Source of the DNA: Phototrophicus methaneseepsis
Lineage (GTDB): Bacteria; Chloroflexota; Anaerolineae; Aggregatilineales; Phototrophicaceae
NCBI RefSeq assembly: GCF_015500095.1
Contig: NZ_CP062983.1
Location: 5,146,001 to 5,210,000, forward strand
Length of the DNA: 64,000 bases
Reading direction: 5' to 3'
Made by a program: the position numbers and the translations under genes. Under the pieces are notes generated by a model. It saw nothing but the letters and a program-made list of their open reading frames with translations. It made no database searches and was not told where the DNA came from. This document shows positions 36,072-61,829 of the stretch, in pieces (within the stretch, counting starts at the first letter, position 1; each line of letters begins with the position of its first letter).

Positions 36072-37759
36072 ACCGCACTTTGCGCACCATTTTTAACCTT
36101 CGGCACGACTATAACGATCCAATCGACCAGATACGAGCGCGTGGCCTTTTTATTTCTGCAATCTTGACCTGTATTCTGGTCATTATCTACGTTGGCATTC
36201 ATCTGATTGATGTAATGCTTGGCGCGCCCCTGGTTATGGAGCGTGCCGCAACAGGGCTTGGCCTCCCGCTGGGCATCCTGATTCTGTTTTTGCTACAACG
36301 TGGGGATTTACGCATCGCCAGCCTGATCATGGTAGGCATCTTACTACTTTTTGGCGGCATCTCGACCCTGAACGGGGTTGATGACGCGGGTTCCAGCATG
36401 ATCATCATCTCAATTGTGATGAGCAGCTTTTTATTCGGCCATGCAGGGACGCTCATCCTCACATTTATCGGGGTGAGCTTTATCGTTGTTGGCTCACAGT
36501 TCCCTATTCTCCCTCAGACGACCACGCTGGTGGACCAGCAGCACCTGCTGTTTGCCGCGATTGTCCTTGCCATTGCAAGCCTGATGCGTATCTTTGATAC
36601 CTCTATGCAGCAATTTACACGCAAAGTCAGTGTGGGCCTTGCGGAAGCGGCAGCAACCAACCATGATATTGCAAATTACGACCTGCGCGAAGGCGAGCTC
36701 CCCCTGCTCCGCCTCGTTATTGAGCATATCGAGACAGACCTGCAATTCGACACGGCACAAATTTATCTTCTTGAGCCAGAGGGCGAGCAAGTAAAGCGCG
36801 TTGTACGTACGCTGAATATCCTGCAGACCACGACCCTACCCCTCACCTACATCAATAACACTGTTCTGGAAGCTGCTCGTGCCAAGCGAGCTGAAGTTAT
36901 CAACCTGAGAGACCCTCTTGAGCGTAGTTCTCATCTGTTGGCGGGCATGCAAACAGCCATCATAGTGCCAATGTATAGCAACGATCAGTTCATCGGCCTT
37001 ATTGATATACAGAGCCACTTATTGAACGCTCTCGATCGGTCGATGGTGGGCATCCTTCAGGTGATCGCAACACAGCTTGGGACCATGCTCCAGCACATGC
37101 GGATGATCCAAACCCTGGAGAACGACCTGGCAGAAGAAGAACATGTGGTGCTGCAACAGCGTTTGCAGTTGGATACCCTCCGTAAAGGGACGGGTAAGCA
37201 GCTGGCCTTTGCCCCCTTGAGCGAAGCCGCAGCAAGCCCCCAGGATGAGGTGATGGGGTTCGATATTATCGACGGCATGCTGCACACCGCCCCGGCAACG
37301 GACATTTCTGAAGAAATGCGCCAGGTACTGGACAAGAATGAGCTTTATATCACCCTGGACTCGGAAACGGGTGAACAGGTTCTGACAGCGCCCATCCGGC
37401 TGCGCGAGCAAACCATCGGCGCATTGAACTTCCGCATGCCGGCGGGCATCGAATTGAATAACGCACAGCGCGACTTGCTGGAAGGCGTGCTCGAACGTCT
37501 CGCCCTTGCCATTGAAAACAGACAGCTCTTTGATCAGAGTGAAGCATTGGCCCGCCGAGAAGTCAGGGCGAACCAGATCGGCCAGGTACTTTTGAGTACA
37601 ACCGATCTTGAATCGGTCCTGTCACTTGCAGCGGAGAACTTCAACAGTGCCTTGGGTGCCGTACAAACGCGGATTCGCATCCAGCCGCAAGCAAGTAAGC
37701 CTGCTTTGCGCAGTGACAGCCCCTCGCGCCATATGGATCACGCAGAGGAACAAGCATGA
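36068..37759 (+). CDS. Membrane GAF protein without kinase domain (563 aa)
   Basis: About six membrane helices in residues 25-180, then a full GAF domain (about 195-345, DTAQIYLLEPEGEQV, VPMYSNDQFIGLIDIQS). A helical linker and a half-GAF follow (APIRLREQTIGALNFRMP), with a truncated GAF at the end (NQIGQVLLSTTDLESVLSLA to TRIRIQPQ). The W-x-EY linker motif of its paralogues is not evident; the corresponding part reads QLDTLRKGTGKQLAF, so this is the most divergent copy. It overlaps its neighbours by 4 nt at both ends. No output domain. Confidence 0.83.
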   Translation: MNRTLRTIFNLRHDYNDPIDQIRARGLFISAILTCILVIIYVGIHLIDVMLGAPLVMERAATGLGLPLGILILFLLQRGDLRIASLIMVGILLLFGGISTLNGVDDAGSSMIIISIVMSSFLFGHAGTLILTFIGVSFIVVGSQFPILPQTTTLVDQQHLLFAAIVLAIASLMRIFDTSMQQFTRKVSVGLAEAAATNHDIANYDLREGELPLLRLVIEHIETDLQFDTAQIYLLEPEGEQVKRVVRTLNILQTTTLPLTYINNTVLEAARAKRAEVINLRDPLERSSHLLAGMQTAIIVPMYSNDQFIGLIDIQSHLLNALDRSMVGILQVIATQLGTMLQHMRMIQTLENDLAEEEHVVLQQRLQLDTLRKGTGKQLAFAPLSEAAASPQDEVMGFDIIDGMLHTAPATDISEEMRQVLDKNELYITLDSETGEQVLTAPIRLREQTIGALNFRMPAGIELNNAQRDLLEGVLERLALAIENRQLFDQSEALARREVRANQIGQVLLSTTDLESVLSLAAENFNSALGAVQTRIRIQPQASKPALRSDSPSRHMDHAEEQA

Positions 37760-40059
37760 ACATTCTCACCTCATCGATCTTCAATCGACTCGTTCTGACT
37801 TTGATTGTTGCTGTCGTCGTACCAGCATCCTTGATCGGTATTGCGATTACCAACATCGCCCTGGAGACGAACGAGCAAACAATCAGCGCTTATGTTGCAG
37901 AGAATGGCTCGCTAAGAGAGCGTAACATCCTGGGCAGCCTGGAACGCGCTCGTTTGAATCAATTCAATTTTGTGAGCGAGTTCCTCAACGATCCGATTCT
38001 GTACTCGCTGTTTGCACGTGGACAGCAAGAACAGAGCACGTATGCAATTGGCAACTTCTTACTGACACACCTGCTCGCGACGTCTGAAGTACCGTTCGAC
38101 GGTGCGTGGATTTTACAGTTGGACGGCAGCGTGTTAACGTCAGCATTCACCGACACGGGCGAAGTGACACCAACACCAGCAACAACACCGACAGATGAAA
38201 CTTATCAACTGGGTTTGCAGCTCATCCGGCAGGCAACAGATACACAGGCAATGGTCGTCTCTCAGGCGGAAGATGATGTCATCATCGAGATTGTTTCGCC
38301 GCTGACGATCAACGGCACGGATGTGGCACTACTGGTCACGCGGTTGGATACGCTGGATTTATTTCTACCGGCCCTAGAGCCAACCGGCACCGACATCTCA
38401 ACATACAGTTATCTCATTCTGCCACCAGAAGAAGGCATCTCGACCGAGCAATCGATCATCGTACCAGGCGCTGTACGCGAAGCAGGTCTCGTCACAACCA
38501 ACTCTCTGCAAGCACAAGGCCCTCAGTTGGCTTTGTCAGGCAATCCACAAAGTGTCCTGACGTATACCGTCACAGATTCACAAGGTAACCCGCGCGAAGT
38601 CATCGGCTATTTTGCCACGATTCAGGTACAGGGGTTGAGCTTCTTCGTCATCACAGAACTTGACCGTGCCACGATTAATGATGCCCTGTTCATCCAACTG
38701 GGGACTATTTCCAGCACTATGGTGCTGGTCTCCGGCCTCGTCGTTCTGATCCTGGCTTTCTTCTTAAGTCGGGTGCTGGTCAACCCAATCAATCGACTTT
38801 CCCAGGCGGCACAGGATATTCGCCGCAGGGACTATAGCACGCCCCTCATTGGCATGAGTCGACAGGATGAAATCGGCCAGTTGGTTTCCAACTTCAGCCG
38901 TACGCGAGACGATATTCGCCAGTATGACCACGATATGCAAGAACGCCTACAAGCATTAACGCGTGATTTGCGCATCACCCAGGAAATCAGCCAGAGTATC
39001 ACCCATCAACGCGATGTGCAGACCCTGATGAACCAGATTGTTAACTTGATCGTGGCGCGCTTTGATCAAATTTACCATGCGCAGATCTTCCTGGTCGATG
39101 ATGCTCAGGAATATGCTATCTTGCGCGCCAGCACGGGCGAAGCTGGCAACCAACTCCTGGCGCGTGGTCACCGTCTGGCTGTCGGTAGTATCAGCGTAAT
39201 TGGGCAGGTCACAGACGAAGGGACTGTCGTCGTAGCACGCGATACCGCCATGAGCCAGATTCATCGTAGAAATGAATTCCTACAAGATACGCGGGCTGAA
39301 CTCGCGATTCCGCTGCAAATAGGTGAACGTATCATCGGCGCGCTGGACGTCCAGAGCCGCCAGAGCGACAGCTTTGACGAAGATATGATCAACGCGCTGA
39401 AGATGCTGGCAGATCAGCTAACTATCGCGATTGAAAATGCCAACCTCTATACACAGAGCCAACGTCTCTTACGTGATACGGAACAAACCTGGCAAGAAAC
39501 TTCGTATCATCGCTGGGCAGAGTATCTGCGACGTCAGCGCCGTGATGTTATTTCCAGCCAGATGGGCCATCAGACAGATTACAACTTCGACGAGTTAATA
39601 CAGCTTGCATCGCGTGATGGCCGCGTGGCCGTTGGCAGCCCAACCGAACGCGGAACTGTCCCCTTTGTCATCCCGATTAAGCTGCGTGAACAAATCCTGG
39701 GTTTCGCGGAGTATGAAGTACGCCAGGAAGACTTCCAACCTGATACCGTGCTGTTAGCGGAAGAACTGGTTAACCGTCTGGCACTGGGTATCGATAACGC
39801 TCGCCTATTCAATGAAAGCCAGCAAACAGCAGAACGCGAACGCATCGTTAACGAAATATCGGCGCGCATCACAGGCAAGACGGATATTGAAGACATTTTG
39901 CAAACGGCTGTGCAAGAAGTCAGCCGGGTGCTGCATACACCGAACGTCGGCGTGCGGCTGCAACGTACAAACCAAACAGGCAACGGAGCGAATAATGGCA
40001 CACCGAGCAGGCGGCGTACATCCGATAAGCCTTCACCGAAGAAATCGCCGTTAACATGA
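37756..40059 (+). CDS. Cache-like/HAMP/GAF membrane protein without kinase domain (767 aa)
   Basis: TM1 at about residues 11-33, an outer domain of about 270 residues (Cache-like length and position), and TM2 at about 307-330. A HAMP domain (PINRLSQAAQDIRRRDYSTP, about 335-385) leads into a full GAF (about 400-560). Then come the linker motif TSYHRWAEYLRRQR, a half-GAF (IPIKLREQILGFAEYEV) and a truncated GAF ending NVGVRLQRT, plus an N/G-rich tail (GNGANNGTPS). The C-terminal half is homologous to the three preceding proteins, but the input module has been swapped for an extracellular sensor. No HisKA or methyl-accepting region is evident. The giant kinase gene follows after 109 nt. Confidence 0.85.
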   Translation: MNILTSSIFNRLVLTLIVAVVVPASLIGIAITNIALETNEQTISAYVAENGSLRERNILGSLERARLNQFNFVSEFLNDPILYSLFARGQQEQSTYAIGNFLLTHLLATSEVPFDGAWILQLDGSVLTSAFTDTGEVTPTPATTPTDETYQLGLQLIRQATDTQAMVVSQAEDDVIIEIVSPLTINGTDVALLVTRLDTLDLFLPALEPTGTDISTYSYLILPPEEGISTEQSIIVPGAVREAGLVTTNSLQAQGPQLALSGNPQSVLTYTVTDSQGNPREVIGYFATIQVQGLSFFVITELDRATINDALFIQLGTISSTMVLVSGLVVLILAFFLSRVLVNPINRLSQAAQDIRRRDYSTPLIGMSRQDEIGQLVSNFSRTRDDIRQYDHDMQERLQALTRDLRITQEISQSITHQRDVQTLMNQIVNLIVARFDQIYHAQIFLVDDAQEYAILRASTGEAGNQLLARGHRLAVGSISVIGQVTDEGTVVVARDTAMSQIHRRNEFLQDTRAELAIPLQIGERIIGALDVQSRQSDSFDEDMINALKMLADQLTIAIENANLYTQSQRLLRDTEQTWQETSYHRWAEYLRRQRRDVISSQMGHQTDYNFDELIQLASRDGRVAVGSPTERGTVPFVIPIKLREQILGFAEYEVRQEDFQPDTVLLAEELVNRLALGIDNARLFNESQQTAERERIVNEISARITGKTDIEDILQTAVQEVSRVLHTPNVGVRLQRTNQTGNGANNGTPSRRRTSDKPSPKKSPLT

Positions 40060-40168: not shown

Positions 40169-43100
40169 ATGGCACAATTTATAAGAAATCGTCAATCACA
40201 ACAGAATCTGCTCAGCGAATCTTTGTTGGGCCGGATTATACCTATTCTTGCAGGCGGCCTGACTGTCCTGGCGATCATCGCGATTGCGGTGGTCATCACC
40301 ACCAATCAGACCAACCTGGCAGAAGAGCACTCAGATATTCTCAACAGCGGCGTCACTCTGGTGCAGCAAGAATTAAATCGGTACGTCCAGGATGCCACGT
40401 CACTGGCACGCAGCAATGAGATGCCCTACGTCATCGAGGGTTATGAGAGCATCTTGCAGGTAGCCTCAACCAATATGCAGACATTGCTGCAAAACAATCC
40501 CTACTATCTATCTGCGCGCTTCGTGGATGCAGAGGGTGACATCCGGCTGGAAGTCAGGGAATCTATGGGCCAGCCAACCATCAGCAACATCCCCCCTGGC
40601 GGCTTGTATGACGCCGTCATTGCCAGCCTGCCAGAATTCCAGGAAGCTATTACAACAGGTGGCGTTGTTGTCGGCAATTATCGCACCAGCCTGACGGACA
40701 GAGGGGTACCATTTGACCCACCGCGTGCTCAATTCGATATCTATGTGCCGATCACAGATGAGATTGGCTCCGTCGTGGGGGCATTGCAGGTCATCATTGA
40801 TGCGCGTCAACTGACCAATTTCATCAATAATGCAGAACTCGAAGACAGCCTAATTCAGTCCCATCCATCGCACAATTTACTTCTACTGGCAAATAACAAC
40901 ACCATCCTGGCAGATAGCAAGACATTAGGCTCGGACTATTTAGCGAACCTGCGCCCAGAAGGTGGCAATTACCTGAGCAGCAGCTTCTATACGCAAATTG
41001 CGACGGAGTTGGCGAACAACCCTGATAATTTGCTGCTCACGCACATCGGCAACAACCTCGTCTCCGCAACATCAATCAACATCCCAGGTGTGACGAACCT
41101 GGATTGGCGTATCGTCTTGACGCACCCCCTGGTTGATGCTTACCTGGGGTCCATCATCGCCGTGCTGTTGATTGCAACCGCCGTGACGGTTACGGGCTTT
41201 GCTGCGAGTGTCGTCCTGCGGAACTATCTGGAGCAGATCACGCATCCGATCACAGAAGCAAACATCCTGATGCGGCAGTTGGCACAGGGACATTCTCCCT
41301 CAGCAAGTGGTCAGTATCCTGTTATTACAGAGCCGGAAGAAAGCGATCTGGTCAACTCCACACAGCTTGTTGCCAACCGTATCGCCAGCTTAAACCAGAA
41401 TCTCGTCACGCAGATTGCGCGTCGTAACCGGGATATGCGCGTCGCGGGCCGCCTGGGCCATGAAATGGTCACAGTTGATGACCTTGAAACCCTGGTTTAC
41501 CGGGCTATCAACTTGATTTGCTCTAACCTGGGTTACTATCATGCGCAGGTTTATTTCCTCGATGACCTGGGCGAAAACGCCATACTCACCTACAGCCGTG
41601 GCGAAGTCGGCCAGCAACTACTGGCAAAGGGCCATCGTATCCCGATCAACACAACCGCCAATTCACTGGTTGGCACCGCAGCACGAGAACGTCAACCTGC
41701 TATCGTAGAAGATACGCAGGCTGAGAACGTCCCGCATATGTTTAACCCACTGCTGCCAGAAACACGCTCTGAACTGGCGCTGCCGCTGCTTATCGGCTCG
41801 GAGATCATTGGCGTGCTGGATATCCAGAGCCATTCGCCGCATTCATTCAGCCAGGAAGACCTGCCGACATTCCAGCTCATCGCGGATCAGTTCGCCATTG
41901 CGGTATACAACGCACGCCTTAAAGACGAAACAAGGGCTCGCGTTGACGAAATTGAAATTCTCAACCGCCAGCTTACACGTGATGCGTGGGCGCAGTATAA
42001 CGAAACAGCGGAGGTTAAAGACCGCTTCGGGCGTGACATTGAGGACCAAAACAACCAGATGAGTGCACCGATCCGCATCCGCGATGAGGTGATCGGCTCG
42101 CTGGATGTGGCCCTGCCTGCGAACAATGAATTCAGTGAAGATGATGCCCTCATCGTGCAGGCCGTTGCTGAACGTGTCGCGCTGGCTATGGAAAACGCGC
42201 GGCTGTTCCAAGAAACACAATTCACGCTATCAGAGACATCGGCCCTGTATTACCTGAGCAGCCAACTTAACGCAGCGGAATCGCTTGACGATGTGCTGCA
42301 TGCCATCATCAACGGTATTGCCACAGATGCATCACAAATCCACATGTGGCTTTTCGATGTCGACCCACATGATGGCATTGATCAGATGACCATTGCCACG
42401 CTCAGCGCCATGACCGGGCACCCGAACCAAACGCTTGCCATCGGCGATACGCTAGAAATGAGCGGCACGGAGTTTTACCGCAACTTTAACCCGGCAGATA
42501 TTTCGATTCATGATAATGACGATGTTGACGAGATGCATCCCCTGCTGGTGAGGAACTTCAGCCTGACGACGCTCGGAACCGTCATTTGCGTACCGCTCAA
42601 CGTGCGTGGCACATGGCGCGGCTTCATCAACATTGGCTATGATACCTATCGCCTGATTAACCAGCGTGAGACGCGTATCTTCCGCTCTCTCATCAGCCAG
42701 GTGAGCGTCGCGATTGATAACCGTGTACTCTTTGAGCAGATCGAAGCAGCCCTGCTGCGAAACGAAAAACTATATATTGCCAGCCGTGTGATCAACGCCA
42801 GCCAGACGATTGAGGAAACCCTACAAGCCGCTATCGTCACCAACTCTGACCGCCGCCTGCATTACTGGATTGCTCTCTCGGAGGGTCCGCGCGATGCTCA
42901 GGGTTGGCCTGAGGCGCTGCGCTTCGTGGCTTATACAAGCAACGATCAGATCGTCCAGATCAATGATTTAATCATCATGGGCGATATGTCGGAGGTTACG
43001 CCACTACTCGAAGGCGATTATGTCATCGTTGATAGCGAGACGTTGAATCGCGTTGATAACGCCGTCGTCGCTTATCTGCGGGAAAAACGCCAGATTTTCG

Positions 43101-46100
43101 CAGCGGTCTTCCCGCTGATTACCAACCAGACGCTCATCGGCGTGTTCCTCATTACGGCAGTCGACCCCATCACGGTGAGCAATGAAGATATTGAAGCCTT
43201 CCTGGCGATTAGCAGCCAGATGGGTACGCAAATTGAAAACAAGAACCTGTTAGATCGTACAGAAGCCGCCTTGAATGAAGCCCGTCGACTGTATGCAGTC
43301 AGTCGTGCGATTGCGAGCGCGCAGGACCAAACGACGATCTATGAGACGCTGGCGCATCACCTCAGCAGCCCGCTGCTGGATGCACAACAGCAAATGTATA
43401 CGATCACTATCTCGCTGCTGCTGGCAGAGCCACAGCCAACGGAAAATGCGCCTTATCTGCGCTATGCCTTCCAATGGAGCAGTGACCCTGATATAGCGCT
43501 GGAACCGGCTGAAAATACGGAAATCCAGCATACAGAAGCGCCCTTTGCGGATTTCATCCAGGATAGCAACGGCCTATACCATTCGTCTGATCCACTGCCA
43601 CATAGCAGCACAGCGACTATTGAGGCCATCCTCGCCGCCTATGATGGGCAAGAAACTATTATCACTTCGCTGAGTTCTGGTCGTAAGTGGTTTGGTGTGC
43701 TCATCGTGCGATCAACAAAAGAGGGTATCCTGAATGAAGCCTATCTGCGCTACCTGGAGACAATCAGTACCCTGCTCTCCGCGGCCCTTGATCGTCAATC
43801 TCTGCTGACTGCCAGTGAAAACGAGCGCCGGAACCTGGATGCTATCCTGGCGAGAATGCCAACTGGCGTTATTGTGTTCGAGCCGGATAACTTCACGCCC
43901 ATCCAATATAACAGCCAGGCTGAACAATTACTCCATCAGCCCATCAGTACAATGCAGCCCTTTGATCCGCAGCAGTACGGCATGTATCGTACGGGTACCA
44001 ATCTACCCTATCCTATCAACGAATTGGCGCTGTACGTCTCTCGTAGGACGCAGGAGCCGACCACAAACGATGATATTGCCATCATCGGGCCAGATTATCA
44101 GATTGATATGCTGATGAACGCGGCCCCAATTTACAATGTTGATGGCAGCTTACGCGGCATCGTGACGGCGCTCCAGGACATCAGCAATATCCGCAGCCTT
44201 GAAAATACACTGCAAGAAACCCTGCGCGAAACAGTCACCATGTATGAAGCGCAGCGCGCTATGACGGAAGCAGAATCTCTCGAAGATTTGCTCGATACGC
44301 TGAGCATGCATCTCATGCTGCTGGAAACAGCCAATGCTCATATCATCCTGCGCAATGAAGAAACAGATATGCTCGAAGAAGTGCGTTCATTAGGCATGCC
44401 CATACCGTCTATTGAAGCCTTGGCTCCCATCTTATCCGACTTCGATCCGTTTACGCTGAATGACGTGGTACAGGATCAAGACCTATCGCCTGAAATTGCC
44501 CAGCTGTTGGCTGAAATGGAAGCGCAAACCATCCTGAGCGTTCCGTTACGCTCCAGCAGCCGTAACCGGCCTATGGGCTGGCTCATCTTGACGAACACAG
44601 AGCCATACAGCATCTCGCCAGAAACAGAGCGCAGCTTGCTCTCCATTGGCGATATCGCCGCGACGGCGCTGGATAACCGCCTGCTGGTCCAAAGTACGCA
44701 GCACGCACTTAGGCAGACAGCCCAGCTTTATAGCGCAGCAACCGACATCAACAGTGCGACAGATGCGCTCAGCTTGATGACAGCCATCGCAGACGCGCTA
44801 CGCGATATCCAGCCAGGTATGTTCGCCATCTACATGGAAGATCAAATCAGCGGGGCTATGGTCGAGATGGCCTCTGAAGGATTCGACGAGAGTGTGCAGA
44901 ATGGGCTGAATATGCCCAAGATTGCGCGCATCCCGATACGCGATGCCAACGGCCTGTACATCGAAGATATTGCCACAGCAGAACTGAATGCCATTGGTGA
45001 GGAACTGCTGAATGGCAAGAATATCGCCGCCTTCGCCGCGCTTGATTTGCGCGTGCAAGACCTACCCGGTGGCCGCATCATGCTGGGCTATGAAGAGCCG
45101 TATCACTTTACGGAAGATACCAAACGTTTGTTGAACACCATCGTCACCAGTGCTTCCGTTGTGCTGGATAACCAGATGCTGTTAGAGCAGGTTCAGCAGA
45201 CACTGAACGAAACAAGCACCCTGTATCAGGCCAGCCGTGCCCTTACTGAGGCGGAAAACGTCCAGCAAATCGTCGATGTAGTCGTCAACTATCTGATTGA
45301 GCCTCATGTGACGCAGGTCTTCATCGCCTTGTTAAGTCATACAGGCTGGCACGATAGCAATGCGACGCTAGAAATCGCCGCCAGTTGGTCCGCAGATCAT
45401 GAAATCGAGCTTATGGGCGTCTCTCTGACGCCGGAGCAGTTCCCAGCATGGGACCTGCTTGCGACAGATTCCGTCATTACGATCAACGACATTTATGATG
45501 AATCGCTCGAATTGGATATGCTGCAACGGGCCAGTATCGAAAGCCTGGATGCACGGTCCGTGGTGTTGATGCCTCTGCGTATGGGCCGCCGTGGCCTGGG
45601 TGCCATCTGGATAGGCTCCCGCGAACCATTTGAATATACGGCACAGCATGAACGTATCTTCCAATCCTTCGCTGAGCAGACGTCCCTCTCGTTGGAAACG
45701 TCACGCCTTATGGCACAGACGGAACGCCGTGCTCGCCAGCTAGAGACATCAGCAGAAATCAGCCAGCGCGCCAGCCAACTACTGGACCTCGATGTCTTGC
45801 TGCCGCAGGTTGTCGACCTGATTAAATCTCAGTTCGGTTACGATCATGTCCAGGTCTTCATGATGGATGAAGCTTATGATTGGGCGATCCTGCGAGCCAG
45901 TACGGGCGAAGCGGGCGAGAAGCTGCTCAACGCGGGCCACAAGCTGCGCAGAGGCTCCGATAGTGTGATTGGTCAGGTGACGGAAACAGGCCAGCCAACT
46001 ATCGCGCTGGATACGGCTGAAGCGGGTGTTGTGCACCGCGCCAACCCCATCCTGCCGCTGACCCGCTCCGAAATGGCGCTGCCATTAACGATTAAGGGGC

Positions 46101-48484
46101 GTGTATTGGGGGCGCTGGATGTGCAGTCCAACCAGCCGAACGCCTTCTTGGATGAAGACATCCAGGTGCTGCGTACACTGGCAGCGCAGATCGCCGTCGC
46201 CATCGACAATGCGAACCTGTACGAAGAAGCACAGCACCGTGCAAGCGATATGAGCTTCTTGTTCGATATGACGACATCAGCCGCTTCTGCTGAGACGCTC
46301 AACGACGCGCTCAACACTATCAGCCAACGCCTGAAAGAGACGCTGCAATCGGATGCTGTCGCGATCTACCTACCGCAGTTGTACGTCGATTACAACGACA
46401 ATGCCTTCTCGACAATGAAAGCCGTGGCCGGTAAAGGTTATGAGGGCGAACTGGGCGATCTCGAAGAAACGCGCCTGGATGATATGGATAACCTCGTCAG
46501 TGTAGCCACACACGGCCGCCGGCCGCTGGTCATATCCGACGTCCATAAAGAGGCGCTTTATAACCCTATGCGCAGCGATGCACGCAGCGCAATCCTCGTC
46601 CCGATTATCTCCGGGCCGGAGCTTGTCGGCCTCATGGCGATGGAAGATAAACAGGTCAATGCTTACGACAATACGGTGGTGACCTTGCTGCTGACGCTGG
46701 CCGGGTCGCTGGCTGCGATCATCCAGAACACACTGCTGGTAGAAAAATTGCAGCAGTCCAACGAACAGTTGCGCGAACTGGACCGCATCAAGAGCCAATT
46801 CCTGGCAGCCATGAGCCATGAATTACGTACACCGTTGAACTCGATTATCGGCTTCAGCCGGGTGATGTTGAAAGGTATTGACGGCCCCCTGACCGAGATG
46901 CAGGAACAAGACCTCACCACGATCTACAACAGTGGTAATCACCTGCTCAACCTGATTAACGACATCCTCGACCAGGCTAAGATCGAAGCCAACAAGATGA
47001 CGCTCAAGCTGGACTACTTCGAAGTCAAGCCCATGATCGAGAGCGTCAAATCTATGACGATTGGCTTGTTGAAAGAAAAGCCATCGCTGGACTTGCGCGT
47101 CGAAGTCGCGCCCAATATGCCCAAGGCCTATGGTGATGAATTCCGTACGCGGCAAATTCTCATCAACCTGACCAACAACGCGGTTAAGTTTACAAATGAA
47201 GGCACCATCACCGTACGCGCCTACAGCGTTGAACAAAATGGTGCGATGCTCGTCCGCGTTGATGTGATCGACACAGGTATTGGTATTGCCGATGCCGACA
47301 TCCCGATCTTGTTCGAGCAGTTCCGCCAGGTCGATAACTCGCTGACACGTACGGCGGGCGGTACAGGCCTGGGCCTGCCCCTATCCAAATCATTGGCTGA
47401 GTTGCAAGGTGGCCGCCTGACAGTCGCTTCCGAAGTGAACATCGGCTCAACATTCTCCGTCACCATCCCGACAGTGCCAACTGTGGATGAAGAAGGCAAG
47501 CGTGAGTCAGAGAAGGATGAGGCCCAGGTCGCCATGGCAAGGCCGCTGAGTACGGGCAATGGCAAGAGTCATGATAATGGCACCAGCCTGACGGAGACCA
47601 AGCCGCCAGCCAACCCGGCCCATGCAAATGGCAACGGCAATGGTAACGGCGCGAGCAAAGAGACACATGACGCTGCAACAGCCGTCACCAAGCGCGAAAA
47701 ACACATCACGCAGGATAATATCCCGGCTCTGCCAGCGAAGCGTGACGTGCTGCTGATTGAAGATGACAAAATTATGGTCGATCAGTATCGCAAAGTGCTG
47801 CAACGCAATGGATACGAAGTTTACACAGCAGACCATGCCGCTTATGCCCAGGCGATGGCGAGTAACCTACGGCCTACCGTCATCGTCATGGATGTCAATT
47901 TTGGCAACGGTCAGGGTTGGGACATCTTAGCACAGCTCAAAGAACGCGATGATACATTCGATATTCCGATCGTCATCGCCAGCCTGGATTCCGATACGGA
48001 ACGCGCCTATCGTCTGGGTGCACATACCTTCCTGGCGCGGCCCTTCATGCCAGATGACCTGCTCGTCGTCGTGCAAGAAGCCGAAAAAGAAAGCCAGCGG
48101 GAGCGCATCCTCATCATTGATGATCAGCCAGAAAGCGTCCGTCTGCTGGAACAACTGCTCAACGAGCATGGCAACTATCGCGTGTTCAGCGCAGTGAGCG
48201 GGCAAGAAGGCATCTCCCTGGTGGCACGCCGCCAACCGAACCTGATTATCCTGGACTTGCGTATGCCAGGAATGGATGGGTTCAAAGTGCTCAACGAACT
48301 GCGCGCCAACCCAGAAACGCAAAACATTCCCGTCATCGTCGTCACAGGGGATATTGACCTCACAGCCGACGAACAAGCCCAGTTACAAAACCTGCAACTA
48401 TTGCACAAAACAGCCATCAGTCAGCAGGAATATGAAGCGTTCCTGGGGAGTGTCCAGGCGCAATTGGGCGACACGACCAAATAG
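40169..48484 (+). CDS. Giant hybrid histidine kinase (2771 aa): Cache, ~9 GAF, PAS, HisKA, HATPase, two receivers
   Basis: TM1 (about 24-47), an outer Cache-like domain (50-325), TM2 (328-350) and a HAMP-like helix pair. GAF1 (about 434-587) is followed by the LNRQLTRDAWAQY motif and half-GAF seen in the preceding paralogues. GAF2-4 span 689-1210, PAS 1221-1344, GAF5-9 1357-2192. HisKA has His2217 (AMSHELRTPLNSI). HATPase_c (about 2314-2434) has INLTNNAVKFT, DTGIGI and GTGLGLPLSK. An N/G-rich linker leads to REC1 (acceptor D2575, VIVMDVNF; conserved Lys replaced by Arg in FLARPF) and REC2 (acceptor D2696, IILDLRMPGMDG). It is exceptionally long for a bacterial kinase. It probably integrates many ligands and passes phosphate to its own or orphan receivers. 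Start ATG with GAGG about 10 nt upstream. Confidence 0.92.
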   Translation: MAQFIRNRQSQQNLLSESLLGRIIPILAGGLTVLAIIAIAVVITTNQTNLAEEHSDILNSGVTLVQQELNRYVQDATSLARSNEMPYVIEGYESILQVASTNMQTLLQNNPYYLSARFVDAEGDIRLEVRESMGQPTISNIPPGGLYDAVIASLPEFQEAITTGGVVVGNYRTSLTDRGVPFDPPRAQFDIYVPITDEIGSVVGALQVIIDARQLTNFINNAELEDSLIQSHPSHNLLLLANNNTILADSKTLGSDYLANLRPEGGNYLSSSFYTQIATELANNPDNLLLTHIGNNLVSATSINIPGVTNLDWRIVLTHPLVDAYLGSIIAVLLIATAVTVTGFAASVVLRNYLEQITHPITEANILMRQLAQGHSPSASGQYPVITEPEESDLVNSTQLVANRIASLNQNLVTQIARRNRDMRVAGRLGHEMVTVDDLETLVYRAINLICSNLGYYHAQVYFLDDLGENAILTYSRGEVGQQLLAKGHRIPINTTANSLVGTAARERQPAIVEDTQAENVPHMFNPLLPETRSELALPLLIGSEIIGVLDIQSHSPHSFSQEDLPTFQLIADQFAIAVYNARLKDETRARVDEIEILNRQLTRDAWAQYNETAEVKDRFGRDIEDQNNQMSAPIRIRDEVIGSLDVALPANNEFSEDDALIVQAVAERVALAMENARLFQETQFTLSETSALYYLSSQLNAAESLDDVLHAIINGIATDASQIHMWLFDVDPHDGIDQMTIATLSAMTGHPNQTLAIGDTLEMSGTEFYRNFNPADISIHDNDDVDEMHPLLVRNFSLTTLGTVICVPLNVRGTWRGFINIGYDTYRLINQRETRIFRSLISQVSVAIDNRVLFEQIEAALLRNEKLYIASRVINASQTIEETLQAAIVTNSDRRLHYWIALSEGPRDAQGWPEALRFVAYTSNDQIVQINDLIIMGDMSEVTPLLEGDYVIVDSETLNRVDNAVVAYLREKRQIFAAVFPLITNQTLIGVFLITAVDPITVSNEDIEAFLAISSQMGTQIENKNLLDRTEAALNEARRLYAVSRAIASAQDQTTIYETLAHHLSSPLLDAQQQMYTITISLLLAEPQPTENAPYLRYAFQWSSDPDIALEPAENTEIQHTEAPFADFIQDSNGLYHSSDPLPHSSTATIEAILAAYDGQETIITSLSSGRKWFGVLIVRSTKEGILNEAYLRYLETISTLLSAALDRQSLLTASENERRNLDAILARMPTGVIVFEPDNFTPIQYNSQAEQLLHQPISTMQPFDPQQYGMYRTGTNLPYPINELALYVSRRTQEPTTNDDIAIIGPDYQIDMLMNAAPIYNVDGSLRGIVTALQDISNIRSLENTLQETLRETVTMYEAQRAMTEAESLEDLLDTLSMHLMLLETANAHIILRNEETDMLEEVRSLGMPIPSIEALAPILSDFDPFTLNDVVQDQDLSPEIAQLLAEMEAQTILSVPLRSSSRNRPMGWLILTNTEPYSISPETERSLLSIGDIAATALDNRLLVQSTQHALRQTAQLYSAATDINSATDALSLMTAIADALRDIQPGMFAIYMEDQISGAMVEMASEGFDESVQNGLNMPKIARIPIRDANGLYIEDIATAELNAIGEELLNGKNIAAFAALDLRVQDLPGGRIMLGYEEPYHFTEDTKRLLNTIVTSASVVLDNQMLLEQVQQTLNETSTLYQASRALTEAENVQQIVDVVVNYLIEPHVTQVFIALLSHTGWHDSNATLEIAASWSADHEIELMGVSLTPEQFPAWDLLATDSVITINDIYDESLELDMLQRASIESLDARSVVLMPLRMGRRGLGAIWIGSREPFEYTAQHERIFQSFAEQTSLSLETSRLMAQTERRARQLETSAEISQRASQLLDLDVLLPQVVDLIKSQFGYDHVQVFMMDEAYDWAILRASTGEAGEKLLNAGHKLRRGSDSVIGQVTETGQPTIALDTAEAGVVHRANPILPLTRSEMALPLTIKGRVLGALDVQSNQPNAFLDEDIQVLRTLAAQIAVAIDNANLYEEAQHRASDMSFLFDMTTSAASAETLNDALNTISQRLKETLQSDAVAIYLPQLYVDYNDNAFSTMKAVAGKGYEGELGDLEETRLDDMDNLVSVATHGRRPLVISDVHKEALYNPMRSDARSAILVPIISGPELVGLMAMEDKQVNAYDNTVVTLLLTLAGSLAAIIQNTLLVEKLQQSNEQLRELDRIKSQFLAAMSHELRTPLNSIIGFSRVMLKGIDGPLTEMQEQDLTTIYNSGNHLLNLINDILDQAKIEANKMTLKLDYFEVKPMIESVKSMTIGLLKEKPSLDLRVEVAPNMPKAYGDEFRTRQILINLTNNAVKFTNEGTITVRAYSVEQNGAMLVRVDVIDTGIGIADADIPILFEQFRQVDNSLTRTAGGTGLGLPLSKSLAELQGGRLTVASEVNIGSTFSVTIPTVPTVDEEGKRESEKDEAQVAMARPLSTGNGKSHDNGTSLTETKPPANPAHANGNGNGNGASKETHDAATAVTKREKHITQDNIPALPAKRDVLLIEDDKIMVDQYRKVLQRNGYEVYTADHAAYAQAMASNLRPTVIVMDVNFGNGQGWDILAQLKERDDTFDIPIVIASLDSDTERAYRLGAHTFLARPFMPDDLLVVVQEAEKESQRERILIIDDQPESVRLLEQLLNEHGNYRVFSAVSGQEGISLVARRQPNLIILDLRMPGMDGFKVLNELRANPETQNIPVIVVTGDIDLTADEQAQLQNLQLLHKTAISQQEYEAFLGSVQAQLGDTTK

Positions 48485-48699: not shown

Positions 48700-50376
48700 A
48701 TGACTACACAAGCGCGTCAAAAACTCATCAATCTGGAATGTACCTACTGCCACACAGAAACACCTCTGTATGCCTTTAAGGGCGAGTGCCCCAACTGTGG
48801 CGAAAAAATCATGAAGCCGCGTTATGAGATGGAAGGCTTCGACGTCCAAGCGTGGTTAAAAGAGATCCGCAACCGCCCAGAAACACTGTGGCGCTACCAT
48901 GAACTGCTGCCTATTTACGATACCAACAATATCGTCACGATGGGCGAAGGCGGGACACCCCTTATCAAAAGCCGTGCCCTGGCTGCCAGCCTGGGCCTGA
49001 AGCATCTCTACATCAAAGACGAACGCCAGGGCCCGACAGGTAGCTTTAAAGATCGTCAGGCAACGGTGGCGATCAGCACCCTGGTTGAAATGGATGTCGA
49101 TGAAGTCGTCGTCGCCAGTACAGGGAATGTGGCTATCGCTTATGCGGCTTATGGTGCACGCGCAGGCATCAAGCTGTGGGGGTTCTTCCCCAAGTTGACG
49201 CCGAGCGAGAAAATGCGCGAAGCCGCCCTCTATGGCGCTGAAATCATCGGTACAACGGGCACCTACGACCAGACAAAAGCCCTTGCAGCCAGCTTCGCGG
49301 AGAATAAAGGCATTTTCCTGGATAAAGGCATTAAGAGCGTCGCTGCCACAGAAGGCATGAAGACGATGGCCTATGAAATTGCGGAGCAGCTCGGTAATGA
49401 ATTAGAAGACGGCCAGCGCTGGCGCTCCCCAGATTGGTATCTCCAGGGTGTAAGTGGCGGCCTTGGTCCGATTGGGATTGGCAACGGCTTCGAAGAAATG
49501 CACGAATTTGGCTTGATTGATAAAATGCCAGCCTTTGGCATGATTCAATCATCAGGCTGTGCCCCTATGGTAGAAGCATTCAACCGTGGGCAGCGCGTCG
49601 CCACCCCGCTAGAAACCTCCGGTTCGGTGATTGTCACCCTGGCGACAGGGAACCCGGGCCGCGCTTACGAAATTCTCTTCGATTATGTTCAGGAACATGG
49701 TGGGCACTTCGAAGCGGCAACCGATGAAGAAGCCTTCAACGCGATTCGCATCCTAGCACGCCATGATGGCATCTCCGTTGAGCCAGCCACAGGGGTCACT
49801 TTTGCGGGGCTCTTTAAAATGGTGCGTCAGGGCATTATCAAACCTGATGATGTCGTCGTCGTCAACGCTTCCGGCCATACACTGCCCGTAGAAAAACGCA
49901 TCCTTGGCGAGCGCTGGCAAAACCAGGTCGATATGTCGAATGCGGCTCGCAGCCATACCGTCCCCACAGCAGAATTGAGCAGCGCCGTCCGCCGGATGGG
50001 CGATGACTTCCGCCGCGTGGTTGTCATTGAAGATAACGAGGCCGCAGCCCGTTTGATGGTCCGCATCTTGAAGGCGCGCGAGAATAGTGAAGTTTACCTG
50101 GCGGATAACGGCGCCAGCGGCCTGACGCTCATCCGCGAAAAACGCCCCGATCTCGTCATTACGGACCTGATGATGCCCGATGTCGATGGCTTCTCAGTGA
50201 TCGAATCTATGAAGAGTGATAACACCCTGCAACAGATTCCCATTGTGGTTGTTACCGCCAAGGAACTGACCATACAGGAACGCGATTACCTGAGCACCCA
50301 TACAGAGATGGTATTGCAAAAAGGCTCCTTCATTGATGAAGCCATGATTGAAAGCCTGATGCAGCGGCTCAATTAG
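48700..50376 (+). CDS. Threonine synthase-like PLP enzyme fused to a C-terminal receiver domain
   Basis: 558 aa in two parts. Residues 1-430 are a complete threonine-synthase-like fold-type II PLP enzyme: N-terminal zinc ribbon (C14, C17, C30, C33), TMGEGGTPLIKS, the PLP lysine K117 in GPTGSFKDRQ, ASTGNVAIAYAAYGA, the phosphate-binding VSGGLGPIGIGNG and the C-terminal VNASGHTLP. Residues about 438-558 are a full receiver: VVVIEDNEAAARL, acceptor D489 (VITDLMMPDVDG), switch Thr (VVVTAKE) and Lys (VLQKGSF). Threonine synthase normally converts O-phosphohomoserine to threonine. A receiver attached to it is very unusual and implies control by phosphorylation or targeting to a relay. The reading frame is continuous with no sign of a frameshift. 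It lies between the giant hybrid kinase and a receiver-kinase, all on the plus strand. Confidence 0.93.
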   Translation: MTTQARQKLINLECTYCHTETPLYAFKGECPNCGEKIMKPRYEMEGFDVQAWLKEIRNRPETLWRYHELLPIYDTNNIVTMGEGGTPLIKSRALAASLGLKHLYIKDERQGPTGSFKDRQATVAISTLVEMDVDEVVVASTGNVAIAYAAYGARAGIKLWGFFPKLTPSEKMREAALYGAEIIGTTGTYDQTKALAASFAENKGIFLDKGIKSVAATEGMKTMAYEIAEQLGNELEDGQRWRSPDWYLQGVSGGLGPIGIGNGFEEMHEFGLIDKMPAFGMIQSSGCAPMVEAFNRGQRVATPLETSGSVIVTLATGNPGRAYEILFDYVQEHGGHFEAATDEEAFNAIRILARHDGISVEPATGVTFAGLFKMVRQGIIKPDDVVVVNASGHTLPVEKRILGERWQNQVDMSNAARSHTVPTAELSSAVRRMGDDFRRVVVIEDNEAAARLMVRILKARENSEVYLADNGASGLTLIREKRPDLVITDLMMPDVDGFSVIESMKSDNTLQQIPIVVVTAKELTIQERDYLSTHTEMVLQKGSFIDEAMIESLMQRLN

Positions 50377-50600: not shown

Positions 50601-51887
50601 GTGTCCCAACGCCCACAAACGATACTGGTTATCGAAGATGACATCACAACCATACGCACGCTGTACGACAGCCTGAAGCCCGTTGGGTATCGGCTTCTGG
50701 GGGCACGGCGTGCCGTTGAAGGGTTGGACATCGCCCGCCGCGAGCGCCCCGATATGGTGCTGACGAGCATCTATTTGCCCGATATGACCGGGCGTGAATT
50801 GGCCGTGATGCTGCGTTCAGATACGCGATTTATCAAAACCCCTATCGTGGCCCTCTCCGACAATAACGCGACAGAAGAACGCGCGCTAAGCCTTGCCGTT
50901 GGCATGACAGGCTTCATCGACAAGCCGATTGACACCGTTACAATCGTTGAGCATATCCAGTACTTTATGCAGGGCGGCCAAGAAGGCAACTTCAAGAATA
51001 CCCAAGAGCTGGAAACAGTGCGCATGACGTACCTGCGCGATGTCGTCAGCCGGTTGGAAAAACGAATCCGTGAATTGGAAGAAAATAACAAGGAACTGAC
51101 AGCAGTTGACCAGATTAAAGATGACTTCATCCGGCTGGCAGCACATGAACTACGCACGCCGTTGACGCTCATTACAGGTTACAACAAACTGCTGCAAGAT
51201 TATCCCATATTCCAGGGATTGGTAGAACAAGACCATAACGCATCCACATTTCTGGAAGGGCTTACGGAATCCATCGACCGGATGCAAAGCATCGTTGAGG
51301 AAATCCTCACAGCCAGCCGCATCATCACCAACCGCATTGATATTAACGTACGCGATATGGACCTAGGCGCTATCGTACAAGAAGTGCTCGATGAATTTGT
51401 TTTTGTCGTCAGAGAACGACGTTTACAAATTCACTTCCTGCGTAAAGATTGGCCCAGGATCATTTATGCGGACCCTGATTTGATGCGCCTGACGATTAGA
51501 AACCTCGTCAGCAATGCGATTAAATACACACCTGATGGCGGGCATATCTATCTCAACTGCGCCTTTAACGGTGAAATCGTCCAGTTCAGCGTGCGCGACA
51601 CGGGCATTGGCATCGCCCGCGATAAGCAAATCGGCATCTTTAAGCGGATGCAACAAATCAACAATGTGCAGCTCCACTCTACCAGCAAGACAGCCTTCGA
51701 CGGCGGCGGTTTGGGTTTGGGTTTGTCCATTTGTCACGGTATTATTGATGCACATCACGGTAAAATCTGGGTGGAAAGCGAAGGACAAGACCGCCGCGCC
51801 CTACCCGGCAGCGAGTTCTTCGTCGAAATACCGGTTGAACAGCCAGAAATGCCAAAACGCCGTCTCCATGCCCTCATGGCACAATAG
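50601..51887 (+). CDS. Receiver-histidine kinase with Ser in place of the phospho-acceptor Asp
   Basis: 428 aa. The N-terminal receiver (1-125) has E12-D13-D14 and the conserved Lys (GFIDKPID), but the acceptor strand reads PDMVLTSIYLPDMTG, putting Ser56 where Asp is expected. A coiled coil (about 130-165) leads to HisKA with His182 (LAAHELRTPLTLI). HATPase_c follows (about 275-415: RNLVSNAIKYTP, DTGIGI, GGLGLGLSIC). It is soluble. The kinase part is intact, so the receiver probably acts as a docking or allosteric module that is not itself phosphorylated on Asp. The start is GTG 50601 with no clear ribosome site; a TATAAT at 50594-50599 is too close to be its promoter. It follows the threonine synthase-receiver gene. 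Confidence 0.9.
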   Translation: MSQRPQTILVIEDDITTIRTLYDSLKPVGYRLLGARRAVEGLDIARRERPDMVLTSIYLPDMTGRELAVMLRSDTRFIKTPIVALSDNNATEERALSLAVGMTGFIDKPIDTVTIVEHIQYFMQGGQEGNFKNTQELETVRMTYLRDVVSRLEKRIRELEENNKELTAVDQIKDDFIRLAAHELRTPLTLITGYNKLLQDYPIFQGLVEQDHNASTFLEGLTESIDRMQSIVEEILTASRIITNRIDINVRDMDLGAIVQEVLDEFVFVVRERRLQIHFLRKDWPRIIYADPDLMRLTIRNLVSNAIKYTPDGGHIYLNCAFNGEIVQFSVRDTGIGIARDKQIGIFKRMQQINNVQLHSTSKTAFDGGGLGLGLSICHGIIDAHHGKIWVESEGQDRRALPGSEFFVEIPVEQPEMPKRRLHALMAQ

Positions 51888-51949: not shown

Positions 51950-53128
51950 ATGACACACCCTAACCCTATTCACTGGCGCGGGATTGGTGCTGCATTTGCC
52001 TCACCCATTTTTTTGGGTATGGCCCCTATCTTCGGCAAGATTGCGATTACAGCCGGGGCCGATGGCTTTACAGTCGCCGCCCTGAGGACCATCATCGCTG
52101 TTTTGATGCTGTGGTCCGTGTACTTGCTTTTCTTCCGGCGCTACATCTTCATCTATCCAGCGGGTTTACTCGGTTGCATCATCATCGGCGCCATTAATGG
52201 CGTGGGTTCCCTGTTCTACTACGGTGGCCTGGAATTGCTGGATGCCTCTATGGTGCAGCTCATCAACGGCTCTTACCTGGCATTTGCCGTCCTGTTAGCG
52301 CGCATCGGCGGCCAACAGGCGAATAAGCGCACTGTGCTGCGCATCATCCTGGCGATGATCGCCCTGGTGATGATTACAGGCTTTAGCGGCCATAGCATGA
52401 GCTGGCTCGGCGTCGGGTTGATGCTGGCAAATGCCCTCATGTTCGCGGCAACGGTCATTCTCAGCCAATATATCTTGTACGAAATGCCTTCCCTGACCTT
52501 CACGCTGTATACCCTGACGACTATGGGCGTTGTGGTGACGATGGTTTGGCTGGCAATCAGTCCCCCGCTGACGTCGACCCTGCTAGAAGCGACATTCTTA
52601 CCTGTGCTGCTCTTAGGCATCACCACAGCTCTCAGCCGTTTAGCCATGTTTGCCAGCGTCAAATTCCTGGGCGGCATGCAAACGGCGATATTGGGCATTA
52701 CGGAAATTGCGGTGGCGCTGCTGCTGGCGGCGGCTGTCCTGGGCGAATCGCTCACCACAGGCCAGTGGATGGGGACCGTCTTGCTATTTACAAGCATCCT
52801 GCTCATGCGGCAGCAAGATATGCTCCCACATGGCTTTAACCCGAACGCGCTCATCGTCACCAACATGGCAAGTGTGCAGTTCCAACGGATTGCCTTTCAT
52901 CGCGCGTTTGGCACCCATGAGACAGATAATGAGCATGGCACCATGAGCGCGCTCACCACCCAGGAGATGCTGGCAATCCAGCGCATGATGGGCGCGTCTT
53001 CCGGGGCGATTGATCCTTTCCCAATCGGGCGGGCACGCCAGAACCCTGGCTACGACTCTCAGGAAGTGCTGGAACAAATCCTCAATTCGGACCCCACCAG
53101 CCAGCCCCCAGAGCCGCCAAATCTCTAA
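51950..53128 (+). CDS. EamA-family (DMT) transporter with C-terminal tail
   Basis: 392 aa. Ten hydrophobic helices in two EamA repeats (about residues 10-140 and 150-285). Typical features are ASPIFLGMAPIFGKIAI at the start and AINGVGSLFYYGGLELL in repeat 1. Family members export amino acids, metabolites or drugs across the cytoplasmic membrane; the substrate is unknown. Unusual is a soluble tail of about 100 residues after the last helix (for example TTQEMLAIQRMMGASSGA and the Pro-rich end). AGGA lies 6 nt before the ATG. It is 62 nt downstream of the receiver-kinase gene on the same strand and could be co-transcribed with it. Confidence 0.88.
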   Translation: MTHPNPIHWRGIGAAFASPIFLGMAPIFGKIAITAGADGFTVAALRTIIAVLMLWSVYLLFFRRYIFIYPAGLLGCIIIGAINGVGSLFYYGGLELLDASMVQLINGSYLAFAVLLARIGGQQANKRTVLRIILAMIALVMITGFSGHSMSWLGVGLMLANALMFAATVILSQYILYEMPSLTFTLYTLTTMGVVVTMVWLAISPPLTSTLLEATFLPVLLLGITTALSRLAMFASVKFLGGMQTAILGITEIAVALLLAAAVLGESLTTGQWMGTVLLFTSILLMRQQDMLPHGFNPNALIVTNMASVQFQRIAFHRAFGTHETDNEHGTMSALTTQEMLAIQRMMGASSGAIDPFPIGRARQNPGYDSQEVLEQILNSDPTSQPPEPPNL

Positions 53129-60582: not shown

Positions 60583-60740
60583 TCACGGCCAACTTTTAGC
60601 GCTCAACCAGCTAAGAACCGAAGAGGCCCAGAGATGCAAAACGTATGCCCTTGCGGCTTATCTCTAGATTGGCACTCAGCACGTTATAGCTTTGTCGCTA
60701 ACGCTATCTACTTCCATCCATCTCACATTGTAAGGTGCCT

Positions 60741-61829
60741 ATGACAACCATCATCTGCACAGAATGCGGCGCACAAGCTCAACCGCTAGATTGGCGCTGT
60801 ACACATTGCGGCGGTCCGCTCGACTTTGATGAGTTACCGCCATTTGATGCCAAAGCCATCATTGCAGGTGATTTTAGCCTGTGGCGCTACCGCGCAATGC
60901 TGCCCGTGAAGCGGCGCATCAGCCTGGGCGAAGGCCTGACCCCCCTGGCGAAGACTAAGATTGACGGGCGAGCGCTGTACATCAAACAGGAATACCTCAA
61001 TCCCACGGGCAGCTACAAAGATCGTGGCACCGTCACCATGATGAACCACATCGCAGCCCAGGGCGTGACGGAAGTCGTTGAGGATTCTTCAGGCAATGCA
61101 GGCGCCTCCGTCGCCGCCTATAGCAGCGCCGCAGGCATTCAGGCACGCATCTACGTCCCAGAGAGCGGCTCCCCGGCTAAAAAGGCCCTTATACAGGCAT
61201 TTGGCGGCACCCTGGTAGAAGTCCCCGGTCCACAGCAGGCGAAAACGGACGCCTGCGAGAAGGCCGCCGAGACAACCACCTATGCCAGCCATGCCTGGAG
61301 CCCTTATTTCACACTGGGGCAAATGACGGCAGCCTATGAATTGTGGGAGCAGTTCGGCAAGGTCGCGCCGGATGCAATCGCGACACCAGTTGGGCATGGC
61401 GGCCTGTTCTTAGGGCTTGCACGCGGCTTCCGCCAGCTTTACAACGCCGGCTTGGTCGATAAAGTGCCGCGCATGTTCGCGATCCAAGCTGCGAACAGCG
61501 ATCCTATCGTGCGCGGGTGGGAAAGCGGCGCAGACGAGCCAGTTCTCTATGAGGTTCAGCCGACTGTTGCCGATGGCATCATCGTAAAAGTGCCCGTCCG
61601 CGGTAAAGCAGTTCTGAGTGCGATTCGTGAAAGCGACGGGGCAGCGCTGCGTGTCGCTGAAAATACCATCGTCCCGGCGCAGGAGACGCTGGCCCGGCAT
61701 GGCTTCATCGCGGAGCCGACAAGTGCGGTCACGCTGGCGGCACTGCCTCAACTCAGGGAGATTTTGCCAGAGACGGCTTCCTTGGTGCTGGTATTGACCG
61801 GGAATGGCCTCAAAAACGTGGAGCGGTAA
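60741..61829 (+). CDS. Threonine synthase-like PLP enzyme (stand-alone)
   Basis: About 362 aa. N-terminal zinc ribbon (C6, C9, C20, C23), SLGEGLTPLAKT, PLP lysine K93 in NPTGSYKDRG, EDSSGNAGASVAAYSSAAG, the phosphate loop TPVGHGGLFLGLARG and the end LVLTGNGLKN. This is the shorter threonine-synthase-like type with no receiver. It should convert O-phosphohomoserine to threonine in the cytoplasm, although close relatives act on other substrates. It is the second such gene in the window and is clearly divergent from the receiver-fused one. An in-frame GTG lies at 60735; ATG 60741 with AAGG about 6 nt upstream is preferred. Confidence 0.9.
   Translation: MTTIICTECGAQAQPLDWRCTHCGGPLDFDELPPFDAKAIIAGDFSLWRYRAMLPVKRRISLGEGLTPLAKTKIDGRALYIKQEYLNPTGSYKDRGTVTMMNHIAAQGVTEVVEDSSGNAGASVAAYSSAAGIQARIYVPESGSPAKKALIQAFGGTLVEVPGPQQAKTDACEKAAETTTYASHAWSPYFTLGQMTAAYELWEQFGKVAPDAIATPVGHGGLFLGLARGFRQLYNAGLVDKVPRMFAIQAANSDPIVRGWESGADEPVLYEVQPTVADGIIVKVPVRGKAVLSAIRESDGAALRVAENTIVPAQETLARHGFIAEPTSAVTLAALPQLREILPETASLVLVLTGNGLKNVER

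Follow-up and report, generated by a model that had tools for sequence, protein, structure and literature searches.

We describe a protein family in which a PLP domain of the threonine-synthase fold (Pfam PALP) and a complete receiver domain are joined in a single chain (PALP-REC). It was found in the window, i.e., the whole stretch of 64,000 nucleotides that was analyzed, and the coordinates are collected in Table 1. The fusion is not an assembly accident but a real conserved family that is frequent in public Chloroflexota genomes; its domain make-up, its conserved residues, its placement in a single clade, and its conserved neighborhood were computed directly. Its homology label, threonine synthase, probably misnames it. 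The reading in which we place about half of our confidence treats it as an enzymatic response regulator, in which a relative of threonine synthase whose substrate site has changed would be switched by phosphorylation from the neighboring hybrid kinase.

Table 1. Features of the PALP-REC locus (positions within the window)
Feature	Coordinates	Strand	Remarks
Multi-GAF hybrid histidine kinase, 2771 aa, probable phosphodonor	40169..48484	+	C-terminal receivers at about 47729-48088 and 48101-48463
PALP-REC fusion gene	48700..50376	+	558 aa, ATG to TAG, single frame; 99 distinct fused relatives
Zinc ribbon, C14-x2-C17 ... C30-x2-C33	48739..48798	+	Four Cys kept in 99/99
PLP fold-type-II catalytic domain, Pfam PALP, residues 79-392	48934..49875	+	Pfam; best Foldseek and VIA-align matches are threonine synthases
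Lys117, PLP Schiff-base lysine	49048..49050	+	99/99; aligns with Lys61 of T. thermophilus ThrC
S140-T-G-N-V144 substrate loop	49117..49131	+	Val144 in place of the canonical ThrC Thr (T. thermophilus Thr88)
Residues 204-222, in place of the canonical ThrC NSVNPxR segment	49309..49365	+	Sequence alignment
SGGLGP, probable PLP-phosphate loop	49453..49470	+	S252, G253, G254, G256, and P257 each 99/99; role inferred from the fold
Linker, residues 401-437	49900..50010	+	0/37 columns invariant
Receiver domain, residues 438-558	50011..50373	+	Pfam match 440-542
Receiver D445	50032..50034	+	
Asp489, predicted phosphate acceptor	50164..50166	+	99/99
Receiver T519	50254..50256	+	
Receiver K541	50320..50322	+	
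REC-histidine kinase	50601..51887	+	Receiver with Ser56 at the acceptor position in this genome
EamA-type (drug/metabolite transporter superfamily) membrane transporter	51950..53128	+	

An assembly or frameshift artifact was ruled out by a scan of close relatives, in which 80 loci were kept of 316 confirmed relatives: 45 of the 80 carry the identical architecture in one ORF with more than 500 aligned residues. One further locus (L052), outside this count, encodes both ends of the fusion with a 100-N assembly gap between them, and the match is confined to the receiver region in 33. Among genomes drawn from the class, 63 of 199 carry the fusion, 16 of them in two copies, as counted from rows of at least 44% identity (73 genomes matched, less 10 in which all matches were unfused; some copies are truncated by contig ends). 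A gap in identity separates fused (at least about 44%) from unfused (at most 39%) sequences in this draw. Forty-two of 400 genomes drawn from the phylum hold the fusion, 7 of them outside the class (43 with a match minus one, G542, which is unfused). The locus scan reaches close relatives only. Seven genomes from other phyla gave no match spanning both domains. Two records titled Bacteroidetes gave matches: one has a full-length fusion and may be a mislabeled bin (L017), and the other has a 62-aa piece that is 66% identical to residues 468-529 of the fused receiver, the remainder of which was not found (L078:6824-7009).

The fetched loci yielded 111 fused ORFs, i.e., 99 distinct Chloroflexota proteins that form 94 clusters at 95% identity and show a lowest pairwise identity of 43%. 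In a catalytic-domain tree built by a quick method from 47 fused sequences and 29 unfused ones, the latter from Chloroflexota alone, the fused proteins lie on one side of a branch with an SH-aLRT of 100 and a stem of 1.66 changes per column. Relatives with the two halves as separate genes, which the first-pass annotation had named as the outcome that would speak against the fusion, did not emerge: every intact member seen with the fused-clade motifs had its receiver. The seemingly receiver-less clade members G104, G021:C682, G049, G140:C106, and G198:C329 are short matches that end at contig ends, and G132 is a gene broken by frameshifts that still encodes the receiver. A direct fusion to the kinase in L118 (a 1695-aa frame) and L119 (a long frame) was also rejected; this extension is spurious because the kinase sits in another, overlapping frame.

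The architecture itself matches the description in the first-pass annotation, i.e., a zinc ribbon, a PLP enzyme with K117, and a complete receiver in an unbroken frame, down to all the residues that it named. Pfam scores are 231 bits for PALP (PF00291; cut-off, 35) and 67.6 bits for Response_reg (PF00072; cut-off, 30.2), and the receiver signature is complete (E444/D445 acidic pair, D489 acceptor, T519, and K541). Threonine synthase 2zsj is the best match in sequence (E 4.4e-48) and in Foldseek (2zsj_A), and the best VIA-align match is threonine synthase 2c2b_A (Z 46.2, rmsd 2.2, 389 aligned residues); the fold search covers the PALP part only (residues about 13-408), and the receiver assignment rests on Pfam. 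The AlphaFold2 model, built from 38 aligned homologues, has a mean pLDDT of 81.6 and a pTM of 0.70. Because pLDDT falls below 50 at residues 394-423, in the linker region, and at 542-558, the C-terminal end, the model leaves the mutual placement of the two domains unfixed.

Both active sites are conserved. Residues C14, C17, C30, C33, K117, S252, G253, G254, G256, P257, C287, H393, D445, and D489 are invariant in the 99 proteins, as is the S-T-G-N loop; position 519 holds Thr (75) or Ser (24), and Lys541 is present in 98 proteins, the remaining one having a gap. The linker and the zinc ribbon are the least conserved stretches; averaged over columns, entropy rises from 1.15 in PALP to 1.59 in the receiver and 2.22 in the linker. 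Relative to an 84% identical homologue (L050), dN/dS is about 0.05 for PALP and 0.06 for the receiver, rough values given a dS of 1.5-2.4 near saturation. The companion receivers of the cassette are laxer in acceptor retention: Asp is kept in 98/98 fused receivers versus 56/60 for REC1 and 50/52 for REC2 of the hybrid kinase, 37/41 for the REC-kinases, and 21/21 for the lone receivers. The first-pass account of the REC-kinase receiver needs correction on this point, as in this genome Ser56 replaces the acceptor Asp that those 37 relatives keep.

A derivation of the fused receiver from REC2 of the hybrid kinase had also been suggested. The likeness exists and is modest: in the window, the fused receiver is 35% identical to REC2 over 93 aa, 31% to REC1 over 95 aa, and 31% to the REC-kinase receiver over 87 aa. 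Mean identities across loci, in a comparison of 32 chosen loci, are 39% (19), 32% (19), and 35% (16), respectively. The grouping of the fused receiver with REC2 has an SH-aLRT of just 53; the origin is thus weakly favored, and we do not claim it.

The fusion does lie between the giant hybrid kinase and the REC-kinase, as first noted, and its placement within a two-component cassette is conserved beyond this genome. Neighborhoods were counted with profiles built from the proteins of the window, estimated start sites, and same-strand genes alone. Of the 97 loci that offer 900 bp or more of sequence ahead of the fusion, 80 have a kinase as the immediate upstream gene on its strand, and the estimated gap has a median of about 23 bp. 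Directly downstream, 54 of 93 loci have either a REC-kinase (40) or a lone receiver (14), and EamA follows on the same strand within 2.2 kb in 33 of 70. Where both flanks are available (69 loci), 48 combine the kinase with a receiver or the transporter, and all of these genes are missing from 7. The H-E-L-R-T-P-type motif with the kinase His occurs in 72 of 83 upstream kinases, the other 11 being unmatched, and in 41/41 REC-kinases. By comparison, none of the 17 unfused relatives for which flank was available has a kinase within 700 bp. This control omits unfused PALP genes beside a fused gene as well as L134, which lacks flanking sequence upstream; in the case of L150, the value comes from a different PALP gene at that locus, but neither kinase nor receiver was found anywhere in L150. 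At control locus L142, a kinase lies 1.7 kb away.

The kinase is not invariably a neighbor, since 17 of the 97 loci are without one inside these limits. Flanking sequence is short in some of these but extends over several kb or more in others (L019, L021, L025, L028, and L127-L129). Among the latter, the fused copies of L127, L128, and L129 have no kinase, receiver, or EamA detected within 2.6 kb. The cassette of the window (hybrid kinase, PALP-REC, REC-kinase, and EamA) coexists with other variants, namely, hybrid kinase, PALP-REC, and EamA; kinase-less genes; and kinase, PALP-REC-REC, and lone receiver. The last of these is the arrangement of a subfamily of nine loci (L118-L126) in which the fusion bears a second C-terminal receiver and the lone receiver gene follows in 9/9. 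Co-transcription with the kinase is not obvious in the genome of the window, because 215 bp separate the two genes. Terminator-like hairpins occur on both sides of the gene, but a yield of 5 against the 3.1 expected by shuffling amounts to no evidence. When flanking ORFs lacking the five profiled domains were compared all against all, no other family of neighbors turned up in over 6 loci. Immediately ahead of the 2771-aa kinase, the window also encodes a HAMP and GAF protein (37756-40059) in which Pfam shows no kinase or output domain.

A receiver and an enzyme domain in one conserved chain, as in response regulators with enzymatic output, occur in 99 distinct proteins, and the kinase neighbor lends indirect support to phosphorylation of the fused receiver by a cognate kinase. 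In the mechanism that we propose, the multi-GAF hybrid kinase would sense a signal, autophosphorylate, and pass the phosphate to Asp489. The receiver, tethered by its variable linker, might then shift the conformation, the pairing, or the access of the PLP active site and thereby raise or lower the reaction rate, and EamA would, in many species, move the substrate or the product across the membrane. From the features described above we infer catalysis, the class of substrate, the phosphotransfer, the direction of control, and the part played by EamA.

This reading and the other option raised at the outset by the first-pass annotation, a PLP domain that acts as a sensor, remain the two best. 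According to the latter, which we consider somewhat unlikely, an amino or keto acid would form an aldimine without full turnover and alter the receiver, so that metabolite status would tune the phosphorelay. PLP folds serve as sensors in MocR/GabR-type regulators, which belong to fold type I. A sensor would be at home among kinases and receivers, and the second receiver and the lone receiver gene of L118-L126 resemble relay hardware. The lost phosphohomoserine motif and the long stem ahead of the fused clade point the same way. The conserved residues would fit a non-catalytic PLP sensor equally well. However, the invariance of the catalytic Lys, of the PLP loops, and of much of the pocket exceeds the needs of mere binding, and the fused chain has no HPt or kinase domain to take up the information. 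The sensor differs from the enzyme solely in the direction in which information flows.

The identification as a threonine synthase, with which the first-pass annotation began, was not supported. The fusion shares with ThrC (TIGR00260; T. thermophilus 1uim/1v7c, A. aeolicus 2zsj, and Arabidopsis 2c2b) the fold-type-II PLP domain, the Schiff-base Lys within SFKD, and the S-T-G-N loop. It differs in its C-terminal receiver, in the missing NSVNPxR segment, and in the residue after STGN, which is Val in 83, Ala in 15, and Lys in 1 of 99 proteins and Thr in the genome's own ThrC. Residues T88, N154, S155, and R160 (T. thermophilus numbering) are what we take to be the O-phosphohomoserine ligands of ThrC. 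In our sequence alignment, the S155 column is Gly in 99/99 fused proteins, the R160 column is A/S/G/C/V/P and never Arg, and the N154 column (position 209) is Arg or Lys in 88; position 217, one place past the R160 column, is Arg or Lys in 46. Of the canonical ligands, the Thr and the Arg of the substrate site are missing in 99/99, and O-phosphohomoserine is probably not the substrate. The S-T-G-N loop binds the substrate carboxylate in this fold, and its retention suggests that the substrate is probably an amino acid. The basic residues at 209 and 217 speak against an outright loss of the site and make possible an acidic or phosphorylated substrate held in another geometry.

Family models and genomic context agree with this. 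The fusion scores 164.9 bits on TIGR00260 in NCBIfam (cut-off, 167.1), a narrow miss of 2 bits, and 274.1 bits on PRK08197 (cut-off, 303), a miss of 29 bits, where an unfused relative reaches 618. The PRK08197-type "threonine synthases" (NF006050), the large unfused clade closest to the fused clade in the tree, share the N-terminal zinc ribbon and the GCAP motif; the fusion has FKDRQA and SGHT where they have FKARG and TGxG, and it adds the receiver. Cysteate synthase (TIGR03844; CapA2 9k3c) is likewise a threonine-synthase-derived PALP (Z 40.7), and on its model the fusion, at 116 bits, falls far short of the cut-off of 324.9. The same genome encodes a ThrC of its own (C1:3484135-3485421, minus strand) with STGNT and NSVNPFR, which scores 265.5 bits on TIGR00260, over the cut-off, and has thrB (240 bits; cut-off, 168.25) at a distance of about 0.1 kb. 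Threonine synthesis thus has a dedicated enzyme. Homoserine dehydrogenase is encoded elsewhere, and the fusion is neither linked to hom/thrB nor the sole thrC. It is accordingly improbable that the fusion is a genuine threonine synthase, or a threonine synthase/deaminase, controlled by a two-component system, despite the top sequence and structural matches and the margin of 2 bits on TIGR00260, and despite a PRK08197-type unfused PALP after the fused gene in four loci. A lineage of cyanobacterial ThrC proteins that carry an additional N-terminal domain might be cited in favor of such an enzyme, since both synthase and deaminase activity are described for it (PMC12172450); that dual activity also counsels caution against naming activities from homology.

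The four loci just mentioned have the PRK08197-type gene 132-542 bp after the fused gene on the same strand (L119:5014-6543, L130:5370-6578, L132:9365-10549, and L165:5806-7029). The window holds a second threonine-synthase-like gene (60735-61826; PRK06450, 248.6 bits; cut-off, 301), and related unfused genes lie 3.8-9.1 kb downstream of the fusion in L010, L020, L026, L034, L046, and L050. Such genes could suggest that the fusion is a regulatory subunit that partners an unfused threonine-synthase-like enzyme and adjusts its activity via the receiver. We regard this as very unlikely: of 62 loci, 7 (the four above among them) have an unfused PALP on the same strand no more than 4.5 kb downstream, the other 55 have none in that range, and the fused copy retains its own catalytic residues. 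Least probable of all is a receiver that serves dimerization or localization alone, without regulatory phosphorylation; receivers often act as dimerization modules, but D489 and D445 are kept in 99/99 proteins and K541 in 98/98 where its column is present.

Most characterized response regulators target transcription, cyclic nucleotides, or chemotaxis proteins. With the enzymatic-output type, the fusion shares a receiver-enzyme chain beside kinases; its own output is a threonine-synthase-type PLP domain that stands N-terminal to the receiver. Metabolic enzymes with attached receivers exist in bacteria and archaea, as stated in a review of archaeal systems (PMC5847659), which calls the archaeal fusions narrow, in contrast to the spread of PALP-REC over a phylum. 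Among the titles and abstract openings that our full-text literature search returned, from a collection with few subscription papers and without the output-domain reviews likeliest to include such a fusion, none described a protein that joins PALP or threonine synthase to a receiver. The claim that no threonine synthase with a receiver had been described thus held in that search, and the architecture nonetheless proved frequent in public Chloroflexota genomes. Enzyme-receiver fusions are therefore a known kind, and PALP-REC is apparently an undescribed family of enzymatic response regulators.

This family unites a fold of amino-acid metabolism with a complete phospho-receiver, and both sites stay invariant among proteins as little as 43% identical. 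Routine annotation as "threonine synthase" would mask both the altered substrate site and the regulation. Tentatively, and with less than even confidence, we envisage a phylum-wide recruitment of the threonine-synthase fold into phosphorelays. It may act as a new PLP reaction switched by a kinase within seconds, with EamA exporting an amino-acid product that is possibly a signal, or as a built-in metabolite sensor based on the PLP aldimine. If phosphorylation governs the PLP site, this would be a direct posttranslational control of metabolism by a two-component system. Since a fusion with intact sites recurs beside sensor kinases in many relatives, an environmental signal may directly switch a metabolic reaction in these bacteria.
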